The notes beneath the pieces were generated by a model. That model saw only the letters and a list, made by a program, of their open reading frames with translations. It did no database searches and was not told the DNA's origin. The position numbers were made by a program, and so were the translations under genes. A DNA stretch of 36,252 nucleotides. Source: Ardenticatenales bacterium. Lineage in GTDB: Bacteria; Chloroflexota; Anaerolineae; Epilineales; Epilineaceae. The stretch covers positions 1 to 36,252 of the forward strand of contig JADYYS010000034.1 of the NCBI GenBank assembly GCA_020853525.1, read 5' to 3'. Positions 713-15,760 of this stretch are shown piece by piece; position 1 is the stretch's first letter; the number at the start of each line of letters is the position of its first letter.

Positions 713-2638
713 TCAGCGATCGCGCAGGGTGAGCGGCAGCGCGAGACCGGGCGGCACGGCGCTGGCGAAGATCCGCTCGAGCCCGGCGTCGGCGCGCAGG
801 ATCCGGAAGCGCGGAACGCCCAGCCGCAGCGTCACGACGACGAGGCCGTCGTCGGCCGGGAAGATGCGCAGCGGGCGACCGTCGATCGTGCGCTCGCCGA
901 TAACCTTCCAATCGGATCCCCACGCCCGCACGCGCGTGCCCTCGGCAGCGCGGGTGATCGTGAACAGTCGACCCGCCTGCCAGGCGGCGTCGTCGATCCG
1001 CGTCGACAGGTTGCGGATCTGCCGCAGCCCGATCGCTTCGTAGACGTCGCCCGTGCCCAGCACGACGACGCTCCCGTCCGGCGCGACGCGCACCGGGTGG
1101 TCGACTTCGAACTCGCTGTGATACGGCGATTCGAACTCGCCGGCGATGCGACCGAACTCGTCGATCTCCTCGGCGAGGAGCTCGCTCGGGATCGTGTAGT
1201 CGTCCAAGTAATACATCCGCCGTCGGACGGCGCTCCAGACGTACGCGTCGGAGAGCTCGTTCCACTCATGCGCGCTGATCCGGCCCCCGTTCGGCGCGAA
1301 TACGAAGTGCGTCGTGTGGCGCCCGCCGCTGCGGTCGCTGGCGAAGAGGAACGGTCCGGCCACGGCCAGGCCCTGGGTGGGCAGCGGGGTTTGCGCGAAC
1401 GGCCGTTCGGCTGCGTCGTCGTCCGGGAGGATCCGGGAGATCGAACCGTCGGCGTAGGCCAGGAAGAGCCGCCGCGGATCGTCGCCGTACGCCATGTGTT
1501 CGGGCGCATCGAGGAGCGGGATCGCGGCCACGTAACTCCGCCCCGGCACGGACCACCGGAACACGTTGCGGTGCGCCTTGGACAGCATGTAGAGGACGCC
1601 GTCGCGGCCGGCGGCGATGGCGTCCGGCGTGTATGCCAGGCCGCTCGGGTCGACGGTCGGCGCGGGCGGGCGGGGCCGGAACGCGCTCAGGGGCACGGCG
1701 GTCGCGGCCACGCCGCGCGGCGCGGCCACGGCGAAGGTGTACACGACGTCGCCGTCACTCGCCACGGCCAGCGCCGGCGCTTCCGGCACGAAGCGTCCGA
1801 TCTCGATCAGGTCCGACGACAGCGCGACAAGCGCGTCGGGGCGCGCGAGGACGATCGTGTCGCCGAGCGCGGTCAGATCGGTGAAGGCACCGCCCAGGCT
1901 GCCCGAGTAGCCAAGTTCGGCCGTGTCGTACACGATGCCCGAGTCGTCTGCGACCAGGCGTTCGCCCGGCAGGACGAACGTGCGGGTGCCGCGGGGGTAG
2001 GCGTCGTGATAGGGGCTCTCGATCGTGCCGCCGAACGTCCCGTCCGCGTTCAGCGCGGTCCACAGGATGTCGTTCGGGATGACGCCGGTGCTGTGCCAGA
2101 AGAGCTTGCGTGCGACGGGTGCGACGGACAGCCCCGCCACGCCGGTGAACGTGGCCCGGCCGATCGGCGCCCCGGTCACCGGGTGCACGCTCGTCAGCCG
2201 TGCGTTCTCGGCCACGACAAGCGATCCGGCCACCAGGAGCAGGTCGATGACGGACCACTCGGCCGCGTACAGCGAGACCTCGCCCGTGCCGTCCGTCGCC
2301 ATCCGGACGACTCGCGGGCCGTAGGCTGCGAACAGGGCGTCGTCGCCGGCACGGAAGGCGGTCGGCGCGTCCGTCAGGGGCACGGCCGGAAGCCACGTGC
2401 CGGTCGCCAGGTCGAAGCGCTCGACCCGTGGCGGCGCCGCGAACGGGAAGTAGGCGATGCCGGCGGCGGTGCTCGCCGGCAGCCACGGCGCATCGGCCGC
2501 CGCGACGGTGCCGCGGGCTGCGTCGGCCCCCTCGACCCCGTCGTCTCGCGGCGCCGCCAGCGCGGGCGCACCGCTCGAGGTCGCCACGATGCCGAGAATA
2601 CAGGCCAGCATCAGGATGGAACGCGCTCGGCGCGGCAT
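713..2638 (-). CDS. Secreted tandem-duplicated beta-propeller-like protein
   Basis: A 641-residue exported protein. The start at 2638 gives a clean signal peptide (MPRRARS, a hydrophobic stretch to about 24, then an APALAA cleavage region). An alternative start at 2704 overlaps the stop of the upstream gene as TGATG but adds 22 charged residues before the signal, so 2638 is preferred. The mature protein is rich in short beta-strand-like repeats, as in WD40/PQQ-type propellers. It contains two homologous halves about 296 residues apart: 'GVIPNDILW...GGTIESPYH' (about 186-211) and 'YTIPSELLA...GEFESPYH' (about 481-507). No catalytic motif, anchor or sorting tail is visible. It is the last gene of the minus-strand cluster with the dikinase-like and methyltransferase/phytase-like genes, suggesting co-expression and an envelope role. 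The function is unknown; the propeller fold is an inference from repeat texture. Confidence 0.8.
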   Translation of the reverse strand: MPRRARSILMLACILGIVATSSGAPALAAPRDDGVEGADAARGTVAAADAPWLPASTAAGIAYFPFAAPPRVERFDLATGTWLPAVPLTDAPTAFRAGDDALFAAYGPRVVRMATDGTGEVSLYAAEWSVIDLLLVAGSLVVAENARLTSVHPVTGAPIGRATFTGVAGLSVAPVARKLFWHSTGVIPNDILWTALNADGTFGGTIESPYHDAYPRGTRTFVLPGERLVADDSGIVYDTAELGYSGSLGGAFTDLTALGDTIVLARPDALVALSSDLIEIGRFVPEAPALAVASDGDVVYTFAVAAPRGVAATAVPLSAFRPRPPAPTVDPSGLAYTPDAIAAGRDGVLYMLSKAHRNVFRWSVPGRSYVAAIPLLDAPEHMAYGDDPRRLFLAYADGSISRILPDDDAAERPFAQTPLPTQGLAVAGPFLFASDRSGGRHTTHFVFAPNGGRISAHEWNELSDAYVWSAVRRRMYYLDDYTIPSELLAEEIDEFGRIAGEFESPYHSEFEVDHPVRVAPDGSVVVLGTGDVYEAIGLRQIRNLSTRIDDAAWQAGRLFTITRAAEGTRVRAWGSDWKVIGERTIDGRPLRIFPADDGLVVVTLRLGVPRFRILRADAGLERIFASAVPPGLALPLTLRDR

Positions 2639-2703
2639 GGGTGGAACGCCTTCGAGGCTGTCTGCGAAGTCGACCTCAAGCCGTGATCCGCGCCGCCGCT
2701 CCA

Positions 2704-5127
2704 TCACCGATTGAGTACCCGCGGCAACCACACCGTATGGCTTGCCCCGCCCTCCGGCGTCGGCCTCGCGGTCGGCCTCGCGGTGGGCATCGCCGTCGCC
2801 CGCTCCGTCGCCCGCTCCGTCGCCCGCTCCGTCGCCACGGACGTCCGCCCCGGCGTCGGCGTCGCACCCCCCGGCTCCGTCGCCGCCCCGTCGGAGATCC
2901 ACGGCCGGGCCTGCTTGATCTCCAGGGCGTCGTCCGCGGTGACCTTGTACTCGACCTCCATGTGGAAGTTCGGGTTGGCCGCCTCGTCGTAGAGGGACTG
3001 GAACTCCGATCGGATGACGCCGAGGTAGCGCCGCATGGAGTCCAGGTGCTTGTCGGCGAGGATCTGCCGGCCATCGGCCACCTGATTGGACGGGCGCACG
3101 ATGGTGTAGCCGCTGCCTTCGGCGGCGCCCAGGAGGATCTCTTCGGGGACGGAGAGCGCGTCCGGGTTCGTCACGAGGTTCTCGCCCACCTGCGTGTTGA
3201 GGTAGTACGAGCCGGTGGTCCCGTAGATGGGGTCGGTCGTCACGCCCACGCCGTTGGCCGCCTCGTCCGCGTAGTTGGCGTGCACGAGCACGCCCATGGC
3301 CGTCTGGAAGTGGTCGACACGGTAGTACTGGCGCTCGTCGAAGGCGCGGAACGTCCAGGTGCTGGCGAAGACCTGCTTGATCGTCTCGGCGATGTGTCCC
3401 TCGTCGGGCCGGTGGGTGTACGAGTCGTAGAGGCCGGCGCCGCTGAAGCCCGGCAGATCCTCGTTGTTCGTGCTGGACCGGCAGCGGATGGGCTGGCCGA
3501 TCGGGAAGGACGCCTGCATCGTCGCCAGCGCGTCCATCATCCACTGCGGCATCGAGCCGTCCTCGATCTTGTCCCGGAACGCCGCCAGCCGCGTCTCCTG
3601 GACGTCGTAGTCGCTCTGGAACGCCGGGTCGGCGAGCATGGCTCGAACGTCGTCGTAAAAGCCGTTGTGCGTCATGAAGGCGTCGTAGAACGCGAACGGG
3701 ACCGCGAAGCCGTTCGGGATCGCGCCTTCGGGGAAGCCGAAGCGTCGCATCGCGGCCACGTTGGCGGCCTTGACGCCGAAGCGCGGCCAGTCGGCGAAGC
3801 CGATCGTGTCCAGCGGCGCGATGGCGCCGGCGGTCAGATCGCGGACCGGTGTCTGCGGCTCGGCCGGGCGGCGCGCGGCGTGGTGGGCCTCGACCTCGGC
3901 CAGCGTCGCCTCGCGCAGCACGTAGCCGGCGGCGGCCACCTTGTAGTAGACGTGCTTGCCGACCAGGCGTGTGACGGCGTCATCCTGGAGGGCATCGGCG
4001 ATGTAGGCGTTGGGGACACCGTCCTGGATGGCGCGCAGGTTCACGTGCGACAGCGGTGTCTGCGGCACGGTGGTGAGGATGCCCGCCACCCGCGGCATCT
4101 CGTTCGGCAGCGCCGCGTAGATCACGACGTCCCGCGGGTTCGGCCGCGCGTTGGGGTCCATGACCGTGAGCAGCCCGTAGCCCTCGGCCAGGTTCAGCGC
4201 GAGGTAGCGCGTCGGGCCGAAGATCTCGTCGTCCAGGATGATCTTGATGCGCGAGGCGTCGTAGAGCGCCTTCTCCTGGCGGTAGCGCGGCAGGGCCGCG
4301 TTGGGCATGGGGTAGTAGAACCAGTTGTTCTGCAGGAGCGGCATGTTCCTGGCGAAGAGCTCGTAGGCCATCTGCACGTCGGCGAACGCATAGTTGTCGT
4401 TCGGCTCGAACTCGAAGCGGTAGACGCCCATGCTCCCGCCGGGGCCTGTAACGTGGGGGTGGTAGACGATCTCGCCGCGCATCTGCCCGGGCACGCGCCC
4501 GCCCCCGCCCCGCCCACCGCCGGGGATGCCGATGGCGCGCGCGAAGCTGCCGTGGGCCCGGTGCGTGACGGAGTTCATGAAGTAGACCCTGGGTCGTTCG
4601 GTGTTCGCATCGAGGATGTAGAACTTCACGAACTCCAGGTCCTTGAGGTGACCGTCGATGGCCACCTCCTCGCCCTGGTACGACAGCGCCTCGAACGCCG
4701 CCCGGTCCGGGATGGCCACGGCGCCGTTGACGATGTCGATGGCGGGCGACGCGTTGAACGGGCCGAGCCGGCCCACGTCGTTGAACTCCGTGACGTCGTC
4801 CATCCCGTCGCCGTCCTGGTCGCCCGGCGCCGCGAGCGGATAGCGCACGACGCGGTAGTGCGCCTCGGGGTACGCCGCGAGCCCTTCGGTCAGCGTCGTC
4901 GTGCCCTCGCGGCCGAGCGCCATCGCAACCGCGTGCTCGGGGCCGGCGGGGAGGGTGTCGCGGACGTGCAGCACGTAGTACCGGTCCGGCGTCGAGGCCA
5001 CCTGGACGCGCGCCCGCCCCGCGGCGTCGACGAAGAACGCCTTCGGCGGCTGTTCGTCCTGCGCCGAGGCGCCGGTGGCCGCGAGGGCGGCGAGGAGCAC
5101 GGCAAGGATCGGGGCCACGTATTTCAT
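2704..5127 (-). CDS. Secreted dikinase-like protein: phosphohistidine-type domain followed by PEP/pyruvate-binding ATP-grasp domain
   Basis: 807 residues. A signal peptide (1-22, ending ASA before Q) begins it. A D/G-rich calcium-loop-like segment DQDGDGMDDV lies at 103-112 and a Gly-rich insertion at 203-211. A swivel-domain-like stretch, ILTTVPQTPLSHVNLRA (350-366), has His361 at the place of the phosphorylated His of PEP-utilising enzymes. Then comes a PPDK_N-type ATP-grasp region: FGVKAANVAAM (450-460), IRCRSSTNNEDLPGFSGAG (547-565), STWTFRAFDERQYYR (589-603), GVGVTTDP (626-633) and the closing EIKQARPW (736-743). In PEP synthase and PPDK the ATP-grasp domain comes first; here the histidine domain precedes it, as in glucan, water dikinases. 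No TIM-barrel PEP domain is present. The C-terminus has TERA and PTAR repeats, then HTVWLPRVLNR. It starts 63 bp after the preceding gene. Activity is inferred; acceptor and phosphate donor outside the cytoplasm are unknown. Confidence 0.85.
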   Translation of the reverse strand: MKYVAPILAVLLAALAATGASAQDEQPPKAFFVDAAGRARVQVASTPDRYYVLHVRDTLPAGPEHAVAMALGREGTTTLTEGLAAYPEAHYRVVRYPLAAPGDQDGDGMDDVTEFNDVGRLGPFNASPAIDIVNGAVAIPDRAAFEALSYQGEEVAIDGHLKDLEFVKFYILDANTERPRVYFMNSVTHRAHGSFARAIGIPGGGRGGGGRVPGQMRGEIVYHPHVTGPGGSMGVYRFEFEPNDNYAFADVQMAYELFARNMPLLQNNWFYYPMPNAALPRYRQEKALYDASRIKIILDDEIFGPTRYLALNLAEGYGLLTVMDPNARPNPRDVVIYAALPNEMPRVAGILTTVPQTPLSHVNLRAIQDGVPNAYIADALQDDAVTRLVGKHVYYKVAAAGYVLREATLAEVEAHHAARRPAEPQTPVRDLTAGAIAPLDTIGFADWPRFGVKAANVAAMRRFGFPEGAIPNGFAVPFAFYDAFMTHNGFYDDVRAMLADPAFQSDYDVQETRLAAFRDKIEDGSMPQWMMDALATMQASFPIGQPIRCRSSTNNEDLPGFSGAGLYDSYTHRPDEGHIAETIKQVFASTWTFRAFDERQYYRVDHFQTAMGVLVHANYADEAANGVGVTTDPIYGTTGSYYLNTQVGENLVTNPDALSVPEEILLGAAEGSGYTIVRPSNQVADGRQILADKHLDSMRRYLGVIRSEFQSLYDEAANPNFHMEVEYKVTADDALEIKQARPWISDGAATEPGGATPTPGRTSVATERATERATERATAMPTARPTARPTPEGGASHTVWLPRVLNR
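2794..2838. repeat. 12-bp in-frame tandem repeat in the dikinase-like gene
   Basis: CGTCGCCCGCTC is repeated exactly at 2794-2805, 2806-2817 and 2818-2829, with a partial fourth copy. On the coding (minus) strand it gives the TERATERATERAT linker. A neighbouring 12-bp repeat (CGGCCTCGCGGT, about 2761-2784) encodes PTARPTAR. Length variation between strains would change only linker length. Confidence 0.85.
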
Positions 5128-5190
5128 CGGGGGTCTCCCAGCGACGAGGGGTGCGCGTTCGTAGGCACAACGGATGGCAGCGGGGATGGG

Positions 5191-7296
5191 TTAGCGCCGC
5201 AGCGACGCCGACGGGGTCGCTGTGGCCGCCGGCCCGTCCTCGCACCGGAGTCCGGTGGCCGCCACGATGCGGTCCCAGCCGACGAGGGCGACCTCGGTGT
5301 CGTCGTTCACGGCGGCGAAGAGGCCGTCGGGATGGCCGGGCAGCGGTTGCCGGGTCGAGGCGATGCCGTCCGTGAGGCGGACGCCGTACAGGACCAGCCG
5401 ACCGAGGTGGGCCCAGCTCCGGCGGTCGAAGAACTCGAAATCGGACGCGTCGATCTTCTGGTCGGACACGATCACGAGGCCGCGGCCGTCGTCGTGCCCG
5501 TCGGGACCGCGGCACGCGTACAGGGCGATGCCCTCGGCGTCGGCCTCGAAGATGCCCCCGCCGCCGAAGTGCGCCACGCCGCCGCGCTCGAACGGGCCGC
5601 CGTCCGGGCGGTAGGCGAACACGCCGCCGTGGCGGGTCTCGTCCGGGATGTAGAGGATGTGCTCGACGTCGTCGGCCAGCAGCGTCTCCACGGCGTGCCC
5701 CGTCTGGAAGCTGCCCAGCGCCGCGCCGTCCGCCGGATCGAAGGCATACACCCGGTCGTCGGCCGAGGCGTAGAGACGCTTGGCACCGTCGGGGAGCGTG
5801 AGCAGCGCCAGGTTGGGCTCGGTGCGCAGATCCACCCGGCCCGCGGCGAGCGCGCCGAGGGACGCGAGCCGGGGCAGCGCGAAGGCCGCGATGGTGGACG
5901 ACGGCCGGGACACGGACACGTAGACGCGATCCAGGTCCTGGTCGACGACGATACCGTTGACCACCGAGCCGTCGGAGAAGCCGGGATCCTGGAGCGCGGG
6001 CCGCTCCGCGCCCTCGAACGGCCACCGCCAGACCTCGACGCGCCGGTTGCCCTTGGCGGTGACGAGCAGCAGCGTGTCCTTCGCGTCCGGCGCCTCCCAG
6101 AAGGCCAGGCTGTCGACGACGCTCCCGCTCCCGTCCAGCCGGAGCTCCGGCTCGAGCCGGACGACGCCGAAGGGCGCGAAGTCGGACGGGATCGGGCCGG
6201 CGGTGGAGGACGTCGCCGTCGGCGTGGGCGGCGCGGTCGGCGTTGCCCCGGGGATCGACGACGCCGTGGGCGTCGCCGGGGCGGGACCTGCGAACGGCGT
6301 GGCGTGCCGGGGAGTGGCGAGCCGGACGAGGAGCGGGAGGTGCACGTGCTGCCCCGGCTCCTGGGCCGACGCGATCCGGACGGCGCGGGCGGGTCCATCG
6401 GCCGCGCTGGGCCGCGCATCTCCGTGGGGCGGGTGCGGCCGGGCGGCGATCAGGGCAGGGACGAGCGCGGCGGCGAGCACGAGGAAGGTTGCTCGTGCTC
6501 GATCGGGGGCGCGCGCGCGGCCGCGGCTACGCGGCGGCCGACCTGCAGCGATCGCCCGCCGCTCCACCACGATCACGTGCGACAACCCGAACCATCGCAG
6601 CGGCGTCCGTTCCAGGCCGTACGTCACTGCCCGCGCGATTCGCCCAAGCGCCGGCCGCCGCGCCGCCAGGTTGTCGTAGCCCGGGAAGATGCAGCCGTGG
6701 TGGACGATGTCGACGTCGTCGCGGAGCGCTTCGAACAGCGCGCGCAGCGAGCGGCGGGTGTAGACGCGAACGTGGGGCGCAAGGCGGTTGCGCAGCGTGT
6801 CCGGCAGCCAGTTCACGAGCGGGATGTTGCCGAAGCGGTACCGGCCCCGCCAGATGATGCCGTGCGTCTCGAACGGCCAGAGCCGGTTCGGGACGAAGAC
6901 GATCAGCCGGCCGCCCGGCGCGAGCGTCCGGACGGCCTCGGCGGCGGTGGCGCGATCGTCGCGGACGTGCTCGAGGACCTCGTGGCTGAGGATCGCCCGG
7001 AACGTGCCGTCGGGGAAGGGCAGGTGCTCGCCCACGGCCGCCAGGACGTCGATCCCCCGCCGCCGCGCCTCGACGGCCCGCGGCCACTCGATCTCGGTGC
7101 CGATCGCCTGCGCACCCGCCTCGGCCATCCGCGCCGTGTAGACGCCGAGGCCGCAGCCGAGGTCGAGGGCGTCCCCGCCGGTGACGTCGACGAGACCGCG
7201 CAGGAGGGCGAAGCGGCGGTCCTGGCCGAAGCGCCAGACGGCGGAGGGGAGGCCGCGGAGTTCGGCGGCGTGCTCGGGAGCGTGCGTGTCGTTCAT
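5191..7296 (-). CDS. SAM methyltransferase fused through a membrane helix to an extracytoplasmic phytase-like beta-propeller
   Basis: 701 residues from ATG 7296. Residues 15-245 are a class I methyltransferase: motif I ALDLGCGLGVYTARM (43-57), the acidic motif TEIEW, and FPDGTFRAILSHEVLEHV (94-111). Arg-rich sequence (246-268) is followed by one hydrophobic helix (269-285), so topology is predicted N-inside/C-outside. Next come HVHLPLLV and a Pro/Thr-rich linker (320-370), then a phytase-type propeller (375-680) with AKGNRRVEVWRW (414-425), EADAEGIALY (584-593), GLVIVSDQ (606-613) and GHPDGLFAAVND (654-665). These resemble the SDQ and 'DGLF' positions of 3-phytase/BPP domains. No stop separates the parts, although the methyltransferase reads as complete near 245 and the next stretch resembles a signal peptide. 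An internal GTG near codon 241 or 244 could start a separate secreted protein. First gene of the minus-strand cluster. Phytate as substrate is not established. Confidence 0.78.
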   Translation of the reverse strand: MNDTHAPEHAAELRGLPSAVWRFGQDRRFALLRGLVDVTGGDALDLGCGLGVYTARMAEAGAQAIGTEIEWPRAVEARRRGIDVLAAVGEHLPFPDGTFRAILSHEVLEHVRDDRATAAEAVRTLAPGGRLIVFVPNRLWPFETHGIIWRGRYRFGNIPLVNWLPDTLRNRLAPHVRVYTRRSLRALFEALRDDVDIVHHGCIFPGYDNLAARRPALGRIARAVTYGLERTPLRWFGLSHVIVVERRAIAAGRPPRSRGRARAPDRARATFLVLAAALVPALIAARPHPPHGDARPSAADGPARAVRIASAQEPGQHVHLPLLVRLATPRHATPFAGPAPATPTASSIPGATPTAPPTPTATSSTAGPIPSDFAPFGVVRLEPELRLDGSGSVVDSLAFWEAPDAKDTLLLVTAKGNRRVEVWRWPFEGAERPALQDPGFSDGSVVNGIVVDQDLDRVYVSVSRPSSTIAAFALPRLASLGALAAGRVDLRTEPNLALLTLPDGAKRLYASADDRVYAFDPADGAALGSFQTGHAVETLLADDVEHILYIPDETRHGGVFAYRPDGGPFERGGVAHFGGGGIFEADAEGIALYACRGPDGHDDGRGLVIVSDQKIDASDFEFFDRRSWAHLGRLVLYGVRLTDGIASTRQPLPGHPDGLFAAVNDDTEVALVGWDRIVAATGLRCEDGPAATATPSASLRR

Positions 7297-8651: not shown

Positions 8652-10100
8652 ATGTCACCCACGCTCGACGCCGTCGTCGTCGGCTCCGGCCCCAACGGCC
8701 TCGCCGCCGCCATCACCCTCGCCCGCGCCGGCCGGTCGGTGCGGGTATACGAAGCCAAGGCGACGATCGGCGGCGGGCTGCGGTCCGCCGAGCTGACGCT
8801 GCCCGGCTTCCGGCACGATCTCTGCTCGGCCGTCCACCCGCTGGCCCGCTCGTCGCCGTTCTTCCGCTGGGCGGGTCTCGAGGACTACGGGCTGGAGTGG
8901 TGCGAGCCCGACGTCCAGCTGGCCCACCCGCTGGACGACGGGACCGCGGTGGCGCTCTGGCGCGACATCGCCGCGACCGCCGACGGCCTCGGCGCCGATG
9001 CACGCGCCTACACGCGCCTCATGGGGCCGTTCGTCGATGCCTGGCCGGCGCTCATGCAGGCCACGCTCGGACCCGTGACCCGCGTCCCGCGCCACCCGCT
9101 CCTCCTCGCCCGCTTCGGCGCCGTCGCGCTGCGGTCCGCCGAAGGCGTTGCGCGGCGCACGTTCGCGGGCGAGCGGGCGCGGGCGCTGTTCGCGGGCCAC
9201 GCCACACACGCCGCGCTGCCGCTGGATCGGCTCTTCACCGCATCGTTCGGCATCATCCTGGGCGCAGCGGGCCACGCCGTCGGCTGGCCGGTCGCGCGCG
9301 GCGGGTCGCAGCAGATCGCGGACGCGATGGTGCGGTGCCTGACGGCGCTGGGCGGCGAGGTCGTCACCTCGTCGCCGATCGACGACATCGACCAGCTTCC
9401 GCATGCGGGCGCCTACGTGTTCGACGTGACGCCCGACCAGCTGCTCAAGATCGCCGGCGACCGCTTCGGCGGGCGGTTCGGCGCGCACTACCGCCGCCAG
9501 CTGGGCGGCTTCCGCCGCGGCAGCGCCGTCTTCAAGCTGGACTACGCGCTGTCCGAGCCCGTCCCGTGGACCGCACCCGAGTGCCGCCGCGCCGGCACGG
9601 TCCACGTCGGCGGGACGCTATCCGAGATCGCGCGCGCAGAGCACGATGTCGGCGCCGGCCGCGTGCCCGATCGTCCGTTCGTCATCGCCGCCCAGCAGAG
9701 CGTCGCGGACGATACGCGCGCGCCGGCCGGCCGCCACACGCTCTGGGCGTATGGCCACGTGCCGTTCGGCTGCGAGGTCGACCTGACGGATGCCATCGAA
9801 CGCCAGATCGAGCGGTTCGCACCGGGTTTCAAGGACGTCGTCCTGGCCCGCGTGACCACGCCGCCCGCCGGGATCGCGGCGCGGAACCGCAACAACGTCG
9901 GTGGGGACATCGGCGGCGGGTCGCACGACGGACTGCAGCTGTTCTTCCGGCCGGCGGTGCGCTGGAATCCGTACACGACGCCCGACCCGCGGATCTTCCT
10001 GTGCTCGGCGTCGACGCCGCCGGGAGCGGGGGTGCATGGGATGGGGGGGTATTGGGCGGCCAGGGCGGTGTTGCGGGGGCTGCGGGCTCGAGGTGCGTGA
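8652..10100 (+). CDS. Phytoene dehydrogenase-like FAD-dependent oxidoreductase
   Basis: 482 residues. The N-terminal Rossmann motif VVVGSGPNGLAAAITLARAG (9-28) is followed by VRVYEAKATIGGGLRS, typical of the CrtI/amine-oxidase-like flavoprotein family. WPVARGGSQQIADAM in the middle and the closing STPPGAGVHGMGGYWAA with its paired glycines also fit the family. GGGAG at 8640-8645 lies 6 nt before ATG 8652, supporting the start. It belongs to the NAD(P)/FAD oxidoreductase group often annotated 'phytoene desaturase family', whose members act on diverse hydrophobic substrates. No carotenoid genes (crtB, crtE) are nearby, so a role in carotenoid synthesis is not supported. It follows trxB by 137 bp on the same strand and may share its transcript. 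Confidence 0.88.
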   Translation: MSPTLDAVVVGSGPNGLAAAITLARAGRSVRVYEAKATIGGGLRSAELTLPGFRHDLCSAVHPLARSSPFFRWAGLEDYGLEWCEPDVQLAHPLDDGTAVALWRDIAATADGLGADARAYTRLMGPFVDAWPALMQATLGPVTRVPRHPLLLARFGAVALRSAEGVARRTFAGERARALFAGHATHAALPLDRLFTASFGIILGAAGHAVGWPVARGGSQQIADAMVRCLTALGGEVVTSSPIDDIDQLPHAGAYVFDVTPDQLLKIAGDRFGGRFGAHYRRQLGGFRRGSAVFKLDYALSEPVPWTAPECRRAGTVHVGGTLSEIARAEHDVGAGRVPDRPFVIAAQQSVADDTRAPAGRHTLWAYGHVPFGCEVDLTDAIERQIERFAPGFKDVVLARVTTPPAGIAARNRNNVGGDIGGGSHDGLQLFFRPAVRWNPYTTPDPRIFLCSASTPPGAGVHGMGGYWAARAVLRGLRARGA

Positions 10101-10279
10101 GGAACCGGGACACGGGCGTTGCCGCGGCCTCTTCAATCGCCACCGCCCCTTCCCCCAGCCCCGCGTTGACCACTCCGCATCCCCTCGGCACAATCCGGCC
10201 CCTTCGTGCGTATAGTCCCGCCGGTGTCCGAGTTTGCCCATCTTCGCCCCCCGCCCGCAGCCCGCCCGAGGAGCCACGC

Positions 10280-13200
10280 ATGTTCGCCCCCCGCACAACC
10301 AGCACCCCCACCCGTCATTTCGCAGCTGCCCGGGGCTCGTCCCCGCGCCCGGCGCTCCACCGCCCCTTCGCCCTCGCCGCCGCCCTCCTCGCCCTCGCCG
10401 GGTTCACCGCCGCCTGCCGACCCACGCCGCCCCCCGGTGAGACGCCCGTCCCCGACGAGGGCCCGGCCGTCACGATCACCGGCGCGTGTGCCGGCGAGCA
10501 GACGATCGAGCCGGCGGCCGAGGCCGGCCCGAAGGACTGGGCCGACATCCAGCCTCCCGAGCGCACGCCGTGCTTCCGCCTGACGGCAACCGACGCCGGC
10601 GACGACGGCATGGTCGCGCCCGAGACCGCGTTCGTCCTGGAGTCGGCCGAGGCGCTGTCACCCGACGAGGTCGCGGCGCTGATCACGATCACGCCGCCCG
10701 TAGATGTCGACGTGGCCAAGGACAAGCCGGCGACGGCGGACGGCGGGCCGTCGGATGCCGCGGAGCACGTTCACGTCGCGTCCACCATCCGCTGGCTCGA
10801 CGCTCTCGCCCGCACAGCCCACGCCCAGTCCCTCGACAACCGCTACCGGATCACGCCCACGTCGCCGCTCGCTCCCGGCGTCGTCTACCGGATCGATCTC
10901 AAGCGCGCGTCGCCGGCCGCATCAAAGGCGGTGACGTCGTCGGCGGATCCAAGCGACGCCGCCCCGAGCCTCCGCAGCTGGGCCTTCCAGACCCGCGCCC
11001 CGCTGGCCGTCGTCCATACCCTCCCGACCGACAGGTCGACGTGGGTGCCGACGGACACCGGGATCGAGTTCGCCTTCAACCGTGAGGGCGTGTCGGCCGA
11101 GGCCGTCGAGGCGGCGTTCCGCATCGAGCCGGCCACCCCGGGCCGTTTCGAGCAGCACAAGCGGACGGTCGTCTTCGTCCCGACGCGCCTGCTCACGAAC
11201 ACGCTCTATACCGTGCGGCTGGCGGCCGGCGTCGCCGGGCCGGGCGATGCGCGGACCGCCGCGCCGACCGTCTTCCAGTTCCAGACCCGCCGGCCGGAGG
11301 GCGAAGACCGGGTGAACCCCAGCGTCATGCCGGCACTCGACTTCCGCCGCCCGCTCTGGGAGAGCCCGACGGACGAGGCGCCGGTCGTCGGCCTGTTCCG
11401 CCGCGTGGACGAAACCGTCGCCCTCGAGCAAGCCGACGTCCAGGTCTACCGCTATGCGTCGGCCGACGCCTTCTCGGCCGCCATCGGCCGCTTCCAGGGC
11501 CTCCCGCGCTGGGCCGACGTCGCCGCCGGCGCGACGCTCGACACCGTCGGCGCGACGCCGGTCTTCACGTTCACCGCGCCGCTCGCCCAGCAGGGCGACT
11601 TCGGCGAGCTCGCCGTCCAGTTCCCGGAGCCGCTCGAGCCCGGCAACTATCTGCTCGGCGTCACCGTCGACGGCTACCCCGTCCCGGCCGGCGGCTGGCT
11701 GCAAGTGACGGACGTGGCCGCGTACGCCGCCGTCAGCGCCGGCAAGCTGGCCGTCTGGGTGAACGACCTGGCGACGGGCGAGCCGCTCGAGGGCGCCGCT
11801 CTCACGGACGGCGACGGCGAGGCGGCCGGCGAGACGGGCACGGACGGTGTCGCGTTCGTCGACACGCCGCCGTCCGTCCTGACGACGGTCGACGCCGGCA
11901 TGGACTGGGCGCGCACCGCGACGACCGGCACGCTGTCCGTGACGGCTCCCGACGGCCGGAGCGCGGTCGTCCCGCTCGGTGACGCGTTCTTCTCGTTCGG
12001 CGGCGGGTTCCGGGACAGCTTCTTCGGCGGCCGTAGCCCCGAGGGCCGCTACTGGCGCTATCTGTACACGGATCGCCAGCTCTACCGCCTGAGCGATACC
12101 GTTCACTTCTGGGGCGTCGCCCGCGCCCGTGACGGCGCCGACGACGTCGAAACCGTGACCGTCGAGATCGCCGGCGGCGACTGGAGCGGGTTCGACTACC
12201 GCCCGATCGCCATCGCCCGGACCACCGTCGTGCCCGATGCGGCCGGCGTCTACTCGGGCGAGCTCACGTTCAGCGGCGCGTCGCCCAGCTGGTACACGCT
12301 CAAGGCGCGCGTCGACGGCCAGCTGATCAGCCAGGTGCCGATGGCCATCGAGGACATCGTCGTGCCGGCCTACCACCTGGACGTGCAGACGTCCCGCCGC
12401 GCCCTCATGGTCGGGGAGCCCTTCTCGGCCACCGTCACCGCCGCGTTCTTCGATGGCACACCGGCCTCGGGCGTCGACATCATCGCCGGCTTCGAGGGCG
12501 ACGAGCGGATGATCGCCACCGGCGCGGACGGCACCGCCTCGTGGACGCTCACCGCCCCGCAGCGGACGGACGCCGCCTGGCAGGGCTACGGGACGACGTA
12601 CCTGAGCGCCCGCGCCGCGTCCGGCGAGGAGGGCGATATCGGCGCGACCGCCTTCCTGAGCGTCTTCACCGGTGCGAACGCGCTGAAGGTCGAGGGTGCT
12701 CTCACGGCGGACGCGACGGACCCCGTCAGCCGCACCGCCGCCGTCAGCGGCACCGTTCACGCGCTCGACCTCTCGCGCCTGAACGGACACGTCCTCACCG
12801 CGCCGGACGACTTCTACGGCGACATCATGCCCGGGGCGGACGTGACGGTGCGCGTGACCGAGACCGAGCAGGTGCGCATCGAGACCGGCGAGCGCTACGA
12901 CTTCATCGCCAAGGAGGTCGTCAAGACGTACCGCTACGACTCCGTCCAGCGTGCCGTCGGCCCGTTCGCGACCACGGCGGACGAGAACGGCCGCTTCAAC
13001 CTGACGTTCCCGGCCCGGAGCGACCGCTCGTACGAGGCGATCGTGGCGGTGGCGGACGACGACGGGCGGATCACGGAGCGGCGGATCTGGATCGGTATCA
13101 CGTACCTCAGCGACCCGGGCGAGCCCTTGACCCTCATCTCCGATGCGGACGCCTCGCAGAGCAAGGTCTACCGCGTGGGCGACGAGGTATCGCTGCGCGT

Positions 13201-15760
13201 CGAGGCCGGTGGCGCGCCCGTCGAGGGCGGCCGCTTCCTCTTCCTGCGCGCCCGCAACGGCCTGCAGGACTACACGCTGACCGACGAGCCGCGCTTTGCC
13301 TTCGACTTCGAGGACACGCATGTCCCCAACGTCCACACCCTGACCGCCCGCTTCGACGGGCGGACCTACCGCGAGACCGCGTGGGGCCACGATGCGCGCT
13401 ACGACGCGTCCGAACGCCGCCTCAGCGTGGCCGTCGGCGCCGCCGAGCCGAGCTACGGCCCCGGCGACGACGCGACCGTCGGCGTGACGGTGACGAATGT
13501 CGCCGGCGATCCCGTCGCCGATGCCTCCGTCCTCGTCAGCGCGGTCGACGCGGCGATCATCCAGATGCAGGGCGCGGTCGAGCGGCCCGACCCGCTGACC
13601 GCGCTCTACGAGAGCGCGCCGGCCGGCGTGCTCCGCACCTACACGTCGCACGTCGTCCCGAAGGGCACGGCGGGCGCCGAGGGCGGCGGCGGGGGCGGCG
13701 ACCGCCAGCTGTTCGAGGACACGTCCCTCTTCGCGCGCCTGACGACGGACGAGAGCGGCCGCGCCGAGGCGACGTTCACGCTGCCGGACAACCTGACGAC
13801 GTGGGTCGTCACGAGCCTGGCCGCCACGACGGACCGCGAGGCCGGCAGCGGCTTCGGCGTCGTGACGGTCTCCAAGCCGCTGTTCGTGGACGCGACGCTG
13901 AACCGGACGTACGTCACGGCCGACGCGCCCGAGATCCGGCTGCGCGCGTTCGGCACCGGCCTGGGCGAGGGCGGCCCGGTCTCGTTCACCGTCGCCTCCG
14001 ACACGCTGCTGGACGCGCCGATCGAAGTGGGCGGCGACGCCTTCACGCCGGCGCTCGTGCCGCTCGGCGACCTCGCGCTCGGCACGCACAAGCTGCGCCT
14101 GACGGCCCGCGCCGGCGACCTCGAAGATACCCTCGTCCGCGAGGTCACCGTTCTGCCCTCCCGCCTCTCGCGCGTCGTGGCCGAGACGAAGACGCTCGCC
14201 AAGGGCGATGTGGCCGACCTCGGCGCGGCCGGCGACGGCGCCGTCCAGGTCGTCATCGCGGACGCGAACCGCGGCGGGCTGTACGGCGAAATCGCCGCGC
14301 TGGCCGACTCGCAGAGCGACCGCCTGGACGACATCGTCGCCCGCGCCGTCGCGCAGGACCTGCTGGTGGACGGCTTCGGCGAGCCGCCGGCCGTCGTGGT
14401 CGACCTGCGCTCGACGACCTACCAGACAGCGACGGGCGGCCTCAGCCTGTTCCCGTACAGCGCCCCCGACATCGCGCTCTCGGCCGATGTCGCCCTGGCG
14501 GCGCCGGACAGGTTCGGCCGCCAGGGCCTGGTCCAGGCGTTCCGCGCCGCGCTCGAGGCGCCCGACATCGCCCGCGAAGACGCGATCGTCACGCTCCGCG
14601 GCCTGGCCGCACTCGGTGAGCCCGTCCTCGCGGACGTGAAGACGCTCCTCGACGCCGGACCCGAGCTCGATGCGCCGCTCTCCCCCGTCGAGCACCTCGA
14701 CCTCGGCCTCGCCGCCGCGCTCCTGGGCGACCAGGACGCCGCCGAGAACGCCTATCGCGCCGTACTGGCCGACCACGGCCGGCTCCGTGGCCTGACGGCC
14801 CGGATCGACAACGGCGTCGATTCGGACGACGTCCTCGTGGCCACCGCCCGCGCCGCCGTCCTCGGCGCGCTGCTCGGCGACGACCTGGCGCCGGCGCTCC
14901 ACGCCCACGCCTCCGCCAACCCGGCCAAGGAGGTCGCCCTGGCTGTCTGGCACGCCGCCTACCTGCGCGCCGCGCTGCCGCGGCTGGCCACGACCGAGGC
15001 CGAGATCCGCTACGCGCTGCCCGACGGCGAGCAGACCGTCACGCTCACCCGCGGCGAGACCGTCGTCCTCCACCTCACGAAGGCGATGCGCACCGCGCTC
15101 GACCTGCGCGTCCTGGACGGCGCCGCCAGCGTCACCGTCGTCCGCCGTGAGGCGTACGTCGCCGACGCCGGCGACGCCGATCCGGACCTCGGCCTCGACC
15201 GCACCTTCGGCCACCGCGGGACACTCCCGCCGCCGGTCGGGCCCGAGGGCGAGGGCGTCGATGGCGGCGCATCCGGCGAGGGCGACGCCGCGGCGGATGT
15301 CGATGGCGACGACATCGCCGTGTCCAGCCCCGTCACGGCCACGGACGGGGTCTCGGCGACGACGGCCGCCGGCATCATGTCCGCGTTCGACGAGGGTGAC
15401 CTGCTGGTGATCACGCTCGCACCGCGCCTCGGGCCAAAGGCCGCTGCCGGGTGCTACCAGGTCAGCGACCTCCTGCCGTCCGGCCTCCGCCCGGTGACCT
15501 CCCGGCTGATCCCGGGCGGCTATGTGCCGGAGTCCGACATCGTCTACCCGTACGCCATCGAGGGCCAGCGCGTCAGCTTCTGCGCCTGGCCGGACGAGGA
15601 CGGCCAGGTCGACCCGATCCGCTACCTGGCCCGCGCCTTCGCGCCCGGCCGCTACGCCGCCGAGCCGGCGATCATCCAGGCGCAGTCCGCGCCCGACCGC
15701 CAGGCGCTGTCCAGCCCGGCGACGATCGAGATCCGGCCGCGCGGCGAAGCCGTGCCCTGA
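10280..15760 (+). CDS. Alpha-2-macroglobulin-family protein, thioester motif absent, predicted lipoprotein
   Basis: 1826 residues; GAGGAG 6 nt before ATG 10280 supports the start and a TATAGT element lies at 10211-10216. The N-terminus has a hydrophobic segment (29-42) and FTAAC with Cys46 as a likely but degenerate lipobox, then a Pro-rich spacer, so it is probably a lipoprotein. Ig-like/MG domains follow: an MG2-type start near residue 595 (TDRQLYRLSDTVHFWG), and the A2M core at about 1149-1224 (TFTLPDNLTTWVVTSLAATT, SKPLFVDATLNRTYV). At about 1338-1360, where a CGEQ/CLEQ thioester would be expected, the sequence reads AALADSQSDRLDDIVARA with no Cys. Bacterial A2Ms are thought to trap proteases in the envelope; thioester-less forms exist (YfaS-type). 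No pbpC-like partner gene is adjacent. The helical C-terminal half (about 1330-1600) is alpha-solenoid-like. Confidence 0.9.
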   Translation: MFAPRTTSTPTRHFAAARGSSPRPALHRPFALAAALLALAGFTAACRPTPPPGETPVPDEGPAVTITGACAGEQTIEPAAEAGPKDWADIQPPERTPCFRLTATDAGDDGMVAPETAFVLESAEALSPDEVAALITITPPVDVDVAKDKPATADGGPSDAAEHVHVASTIRWLDALARTAHAQSLDNRYRITPTSPLAPGVVYRIDLKRASPAASKAVTSSADPSDAAPSLRSWAFQTRAPLAVVHTLPTDRSTWVPTDTGIEFAFNREGVSAEAVEAAFRIEPATPGRFEQHKRTVVFVPTRLLTNTLYTVRLAAGVAGPGDARTAAPTVFQFQTRRPEGEDRVNPSVMPALDFRRPLWESPTDEAPVVGLFRRVDETVALEQADVQVYRYASADAFSAAIGRFQGLPRWADVAAGATLDTVGATPVFTFTAPLAQQGDFGELAVQFPEPLEPGNYLLGVTVDGYPVPAGGWLQVTDVAAYAAVSAGKLAVWVNDLATGEPLEGAALTDGDGEAAGETGTDGVAFVDTPPSVLTTVDAGMDWARTATTGTLSVTAPDGRSAVVPLGDAFFSFGGGFRDSFFGGRSPEGRYWRYLYTDRQLYRLSDTVHFWGVARARDGADDVETVTVEIAGGDWSGFDYRPIAIARTTVVPDAAGVYSGELTFSGASPSWYTLKARVDGQLISQVPMAIEDIVVPAYHLDVQTSRRALMVGEPFSATVTAAFFDGTPASGVDIIAGFEGDERMIATGADGTASWTLTAPQRTDAAWQGYGTTYLSARAASGEEGDIGATAFLSVFTGANALKVEGALTADATDPVSRTAAVSGTVHALDLSRLNGHVLTAPDDFYGDIMPGADVTVRVTETEQVRIETGERYDFIAKEVVKTYRYDSVQRAVGPFATTADENGRFNLTFPARSDRSYEAIVAVADDDGRITERRIWIGITYLSDPGEPLTLISDADASQSKVYRVGDEVSLRVEAGGAPVEGGRFLFLRARNGLQDYTLTDEPRFAFDFEDTHVPNVHTLTARFDGRTYRETAWGHDARYDASERRLSVAVGAAEPSYGPGDDATVGVTVTNVAGDPVADASVLVSAVDAAIIQMQGAVERPDPLTALYESAPAGVLRTYTSHVVPKGTAGAEGGGGGGDRQLFEDTSLFARLTTDESGRAEATFTLPDNLTTWVVTSLAATTDREAGSGFGVVTVSKPLFVDATLNRTYVTADAPEIRLRAFGTGLGEGGPVSFTVASDTLLDAPIEVGGDAFTPALVPLGDLALGTHKLRLTARAGDLEDTLVREVTVLPSRLSRVVAETKTLAKGDVADLGAAGDGAVQVVIADANRGGLYGEIAALADSQSDRLDDIVARAVAQDLLVDGFGEPPAVVVDLRSTTYQTATGGLSLFPYSAPDIALSADVALAAPDRFGRQGLVQAFRAALEAPDIAREDAIVTLRGLAALGEPVLADVKTLLDAGPELDAPLSPVEHLDLGLAAALLGDQDAAENAYRAVLADHGRLRGLTARIDNGVDSDDVLVATARAAVLGALLGDDLAPALHAHASANPAKEVALAVWHAAYLRAALPRLATTEAEIRYALPDGEQTVTLTRGETVVLHLTKAMRTALDLRVLDGAASVTVVRREAYVADAGDADPDLGLDRTFGHRGTLPPPVGPEGEGVDGGASGEGDAAADVDGDDIAVSSPVTATDGVSATTAAGIMSAFDEGDLLVITLAPRLGPKAAAGCYQVSDLLPSGLRPVTSRLIPGGYVPESDIVYPYAIEGQRVSFCAWPDEDGQVDPIRYLARAFAPGRYAAEPAIIQAQSAPDRQALSSPATIEIRPRGEAVP

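Follow-up and report, generated by a model that had tools for sequence, protein, structure and literature searches.

Three adjacent genes on the minus strand of the window, which is the whole 36,252-nucleotide stretch of DNA analysed here, raise the question of whether they act together in an extracytoplasmic phosphate system with a phytase propeller, as proposed in an earlier note on this DNA, or whether one of them has to be considered on its own. Gene A (5191–7296) encodes a 701 aa protein that displays a methyltransferase, a hydrophobic segment and a weakly phytase-like propeller; gene B (2704–5127) encodes an 807 aa exported dikinase-like protein, which is the core of our finding; and gene C (713–2638) encodes a 641 aa exported-looking protein that is duplicated and propeller-like. 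The A–B gap is 63 bp (5128–5190) and the B–C gap 65 bp (2639–2703), and the coordinates agree with the earlier description of three adjacent minus-strand genes separated by 63–65 bp. No match was obtained in the plasmid records that were searched.

Domain order and active site of protein B

The protein encoded by gene B opens with a signal-peptide-like start as judged by a hydropathy rule (MKYVAPILAVLLAALAATGASAQ, residues 1–23, minus strand 5059–5127), followed by a predicted beta-sandwich in the AlphaFold2 model (residues 24–100, 4828–5058) and by a calcium-binding TSP3-like motif recognised from sequence (DQDGDGMDDVTEFN, residues 103–116, 4780–4821); weak TSP3_bac matches were found in 3 of 22 family members, with a best E-value of 0.0078. 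Residues 130–303 (4219–4740) correspond to a family-specific domain that is conserved across A1/A2 and is a candidate acceptor site, and Foldseek and VIA gave no fold match for residues 118–303 (model mean pLDDT 69) beyond the His domain. Then come a swivelling phosphohistidine domain (residues 304–407, 3907–4218), identified by structure alignment and carrying H361 in the motif QTPLSHVNLRA, and a PPDK_N ATP-grasp domain (residues 433–747, 2887–3831), identified by both Pfam and structure alignment. The Pfam match covers residues 450–745 with an E-value of 5.6e-27 and 95.3 bits against a gathering cut-off of 27, and PPDK_N was found in all 22 A2 members. Finally, residues 748–807 (2704–2886) form a Thr/Pro-rich tail of low confidence (pLDDT under 30) that ends in HTVWLPRVLNR.

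The AlphaFold2 model, built from six sequences, has a mean pLDDT of 70 and a pTM of 0.56. Within it, the ATP-grasp domain aligned with that of PEP synthase (2ols) with a Z-score of 28.0 and an rmsd of 2.5 over 288 residues, and with that of rifampin phosphotransferase (RPH) with a Z-score of 27.5. Residues 304–407 were re-predicted in a separate fragment before alignment and matched the His domain of RPH (Z 11.4, rmsd 2.5, 97 residues), enzyme I (Z 9.0) and PPDK (Z 8.6–8.9) in VIA-align. The PPDK_N match, the His domain and the signal-peptide-like start all bear out the earlier view of a secreted protein with swivelling-His and PPDK_N-type ATP-grasp domains.

The active site is complete. H361, K453, R548, R550, E556, D557, E726, K728, Q739 and R741, which were equated by motif with the catalytic residues of PPDK and PEP synthase, are invariant in 26 aligned proteins spanning five phyla and three subfamilies, two of the latter being more distant subfamilies of exported type. 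The loss of ATP-site residues, named beforehand as an observation that would weigh against the proposal, was not seen. One of the two distant subfamilies has a representative, carrying Lcl_C domains, in the genome that encodes protein B. Besides gene B, this genome holds a second exported-type PPDK_N protein at G000:C53:86013–87431 (L021:7114–11523, minus strand), whose frame of 1470 residues has two Lcl_C domains before the His domain and the ATP-grasp; a relative of it occurs in the same-family genome G401 (L033).

Protein B shares with PEP synthase and PPDK the ATP-grasp fold, the swivelling His domain and the catalytic residues, but its domain order is reversed, with the N-terminal domains followed by the His domain and then the ATP-grasp; it is also exported, and neither profile nor structure comparison detected a PEP/pyruvate-binding domain. 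RPH, a dikinase whose acceptor is not pyruvate (PMC4844700), also resembles protein B in both domains, while its own order is ATP-grasp, acceptor domain, His, in contrast to the N-terminal domain, His and ATP-grasp of the exported protein B. The earlier assignment to the PPDK/PEP-synthase type holds in that the enzyme is PPDK-type and its ATP site is intact, but not for the domain order, which is that of the plant starch-phosphorylating enzyme alpha-glucan water dikinase (GWD) and had been overlooked.

In GWD, a phosphohistidine domain precedes a C-terminal PPDK_N ATP-grasp and a PEP domain is absent. The B family, like GWD and phosphoglucan water dikinase (PWD) of plants and algae, has this order, lacks the PEP/pyruvate domain, carries a His motif of the SH-V-x-x-RA type and gives subthreshold matches to the GWD1_pHisD model (PF22973). 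In protein B the match lies at 3904–4089 with an E-value of 0.3 and 12.5 bits, while one homologue reaches 6.4e-5; 4 of the 22 members match (best E-value 1.3e-4), and every match is under the curated cut-off of 27, the best being 25.2 bits in a paralogue. In genome searches this model hit mostly the His region of B-family proteins, in many genomes carrying B, and gave weak matches also in 5 of 14 control genomes. Unlike GWD and PWD, B-family members are exported bacterial proteins of about 650–1600 aa; no starch-binding domain was found in protein B, no Pfam carbohydrate-binding model matched it, and its N-terminal part is unrelated as far as tested. The family offers bacterial homologues that are compact and keep the domain order of GWD. 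The conserved catalytic His of GWD has been reviewed (PMC12892837), and the same 2026 review states that a high-resolution structure of GWD or PWD does not exist (PMC12892837).

Distribution and export of the B family

The B family is sparse, with members in the window's phylum, Bacteroidota (Saprospiraceae/Chitinophagales), Verrucomicrobiota, Planctomycetota and Chlamydiota. In a sample of 400 genomes from the window's phylum, a full-length B was found in four, its own included, and two further matches were partial. Full-length relatives were also found in one genome each of Saprospiraceae, Verrucomicrobiales, Phycisphaerae and Parachlamydiales; the Verrucomicrobiales genome has seven near-full-length copies, and about 15 of 199 genomes from the order of the Saprospiraceae match carry full-length relatives. 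In the tree, where many deep forks are weakly supported, protein B groups with its two relatives from the same family, and the remaining sequences of its phylum fall on different branches. This branching is compatible with sparse inheritance accompanied by loss or transfer but does not prove it. Copies may lie close together: L059 has two a few genes apart, L087 has two in tandem, and in L084 (G570) the B gene is convergent with a divergent paralogue, with about 100 bp between them.

According to the hydropathy rule, a signal-peptide-like start is present in nearly all family members whose N-terminus is intact: a short positively charged stretch leads into a hydrophobic core, and small residues, often AQ or SQ, close the segment. 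No clear signal start was detected by this rule in L016 and L017, and L063 is cut. A Por_Secre_tail domain, associated with type IX sorting, is present in 3 of the 22 members; others contain the adhesin-type domains CARDB and SprB. These sequence features support export of the family in several phyla. The exported dikinase family is real and conserved, and an exported family with a complete ATP-to-histidine active site in the GWD order has apparently not been described before. A search of the open-access literature returned no paper on exported PPDK_N proteins or on bacterial dikinases with the GWD order; this absence is weak evidence because open-access PMC only was covered.

In the window's family, B proteins end in a Thr/Pro-rich or short linker and a hydrophobic LP motif, namely VWLPRVLNR in the window (within 2704–2886) and LYLPLAWNAQP and VFLPLAVRG in the B proteins of L031 and L032. 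A C-terminal sorting tag of the LPL type was considered for this genome and is unsupported in that form, the strict codon pattern LPL-V-x-R-stop having given 0 matches across the genome.

Possible role of protein B outside the cytoplasm

Because the family is conserved and exported and its active site is complete, one may ask which phosphoryl donor and which acceptor exist outside these bacteria. The answer that we tentatively prefer, while giving it somewhat less than an even chance, is that protein B is an exported, stand-alone dikinase that would pass phosphate from ATP via phosphohistidine to an extracytoplasmic acceptor, most probably a glycan hydroxyl. After Sec export, the ATP-grasp domain would bind ATP and load the beta-phosphate onto His361 in the swivelling domain ahead of it, with release of AMP and phosphate; the phosphohistidine domain would then swing to the N-terminal family-specific domain, from which the acceptor would receive the phosphate, and all of this would be achieved by a stand-alone gene product. 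The likeliest acceptor would be a hydroxyl group on a polymer at the surface or outside the cell, and a glycan is favoured because GWD and PWD have the same domain order and likewise no PEP domain, which is an argument by analogy only. Catalysis, the direction of transfer, the acceptor and the source of ATP are all points that we infer. The dikinase reading draws on the PPDK_N match, the ATP-grasp and His alignments of the predicted model, the invariant residues, the export signals and the stand-alone gene; while the requirement for extracytoplasmic ATP, the subthreshold GWD1_pHisD scores, the failure to identify a carbohydrate-binding domain and the N-terminal fold without a match speak against it. 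The phosphoryl donor is the main difficulty, since an ATP pool outside the bacterial cytoplasm is not established; we know of no ATP-rich extracytoplasmic compartment in bacteria, and the PPDK-type dikinases known to us act inside a cell or organelle, where ATP is present. An extension of this reading, in which a family of dikinases exported in several phyla would phosphorylate polysaccharides of the surface or the environment with extracytoplasmic ATP, as an extracellular counterpart of the starch-phosphorylating GWD, appears unlikely at present.

A different outcome of the same chemistry would be phosphate scavenging, in which exported protein B would consume extracellular ATP to yield AMP and phosphate; the phosphohistidine would in the end be discharged to water, and an adjacent phosphatase propeller could assist. 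The dikinase half-reaction of PPDK, PEP synthase and GWD does free phosphate and AMP, the protein has a signal-peptide-like start and a weakly phytase-like propeller adjoins it in this genome; however, the propeller is not conserved as a neighbour, and a conserved swivelling His together with a large conserved N-terminal domain exceeds the needs of an apyrase, which makes scavenging distinctly improbable. We give a similarly low probability to a non-catalytic protein B with a structural or nucleotide-binding role at the surface. This would remove the puzzle of extracellular ATP, of which no extracytoplasmic pool is known, and agrees with the fusion of some homologues to CARDB and SprB adhesin-type domains, but it sits poorly with the strict conservation of the His and of all tested ATP-site residues over five phyla and three subfamilies. 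Lower still is the chance that protein B resembles the prodigiosin ligases PigC and RedH, which are of the PPDK_N type, in activating an acceptor for ligation with no stable phosphate left behind, and thereby cross-links or modifies envelope material: the PigC and RedH models match its ATP-grasp region (E-values 1.4e-12 and 6.8e-11), but they match PEP synthase-type domains generally and protein B scores far under their cut-offs.

Genes A and C as neighbours of gene B

The stand-alone dikinase that we prefer leaves genes A and C to be accounted for. Protein A matches Methyltransf_11 at residues 44–133 (Pfam, E-value 7.6e-17) and has a hydrophobic segment at about residues 271–285, so that the earlier layout of methyltransferase, membrane helix and propeller stands, while "phytase-like" is a weak assignment because the scores fall under the cut-offs: 19.8 bits against 21 for Pfam Phytase (E-value 4e-4) and 36 bits against 440 for NF045638 (E-value 3e-9). 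Its resemblance to beta-propeller phytases is a weak match across part of the propeller, phytases of the B. subtilis type being matched only marginally in the PDB (E-value 0.02), and unlike in those enzymes its catalytic residues are putative. Protein C has two halves that are 27% identical (E-value 3e-11 in the internal duplication comparison) and looks exported, as expected from its description as a secreted duplicated propeller; it received no Pfam assignment.

In the two same-family genomes, G400 and G401 (84 and 81% complete), B is present with 70% and 68% identity. It lies at a contig edge in both, leaving only the upstream, or A, side open to comparison, and no relative of A was found upstream in the approximately 12 kb (G400) and 7.7 kb (G401) examined. 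Neither half of A nor C has a homologue beside B in the loci examined from other phyla, and an all-against-all comparison of flanking frames revealed no conserved neighbour of B, shared neighbours being confined to pairs of related genomes. No homologue of C was found at an E-value of 1e-5 in 40 relatives, G400 and G401 included. The neighbourhood of A, B and C homologues for which the earlier note had proposed to look was absent from the loci tested, for which a conserved three-gene system is rejected, and as a conserved unit it is largely refuted.

When the 40 relatives were searched, the methyltransferase half of A matched, in most of them, a free-standing protein of about 250 residues; for the propeller half the set contains a single weak relative, encoded on a G401 contig without B. 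Among these relatives the two halves are joined in this genome only, as a single open frame in the assembly, and A is considered a fusion limited to this genome because its methyltransferase half stands alone elsewhere and its propeller half is nearly without relatives. That A, B and C form an extracytoplasmic system of phosphate transfer and removal is therefore very improbable: the shared strand, the gaps of 63 and 65 bp and the phytase-like signal in A are set against the lack of A upstream of B in both same-family relatives, the lack of A and C at all other B loci examined, the lack of C homologues and the local origin of the fusion. The grouping is one of ordinary proximity and local fusion, and we propose that A and C are incidental neighbours of B or a lineage-specific addition.

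An adjacent frame has a stop at the usual end of the methyltransferase, which makes a frameshift in the assembly or in evolution possible; the fusion may stem from the loss of a stop codon or from an error of assembly. Elsewhere in the window, a plus-strand frame (8897–15760) encodes a large protein, probably a lipoprotein, in which Big_5, alpha-2-macroglobulin and bait-region domains were recognised.
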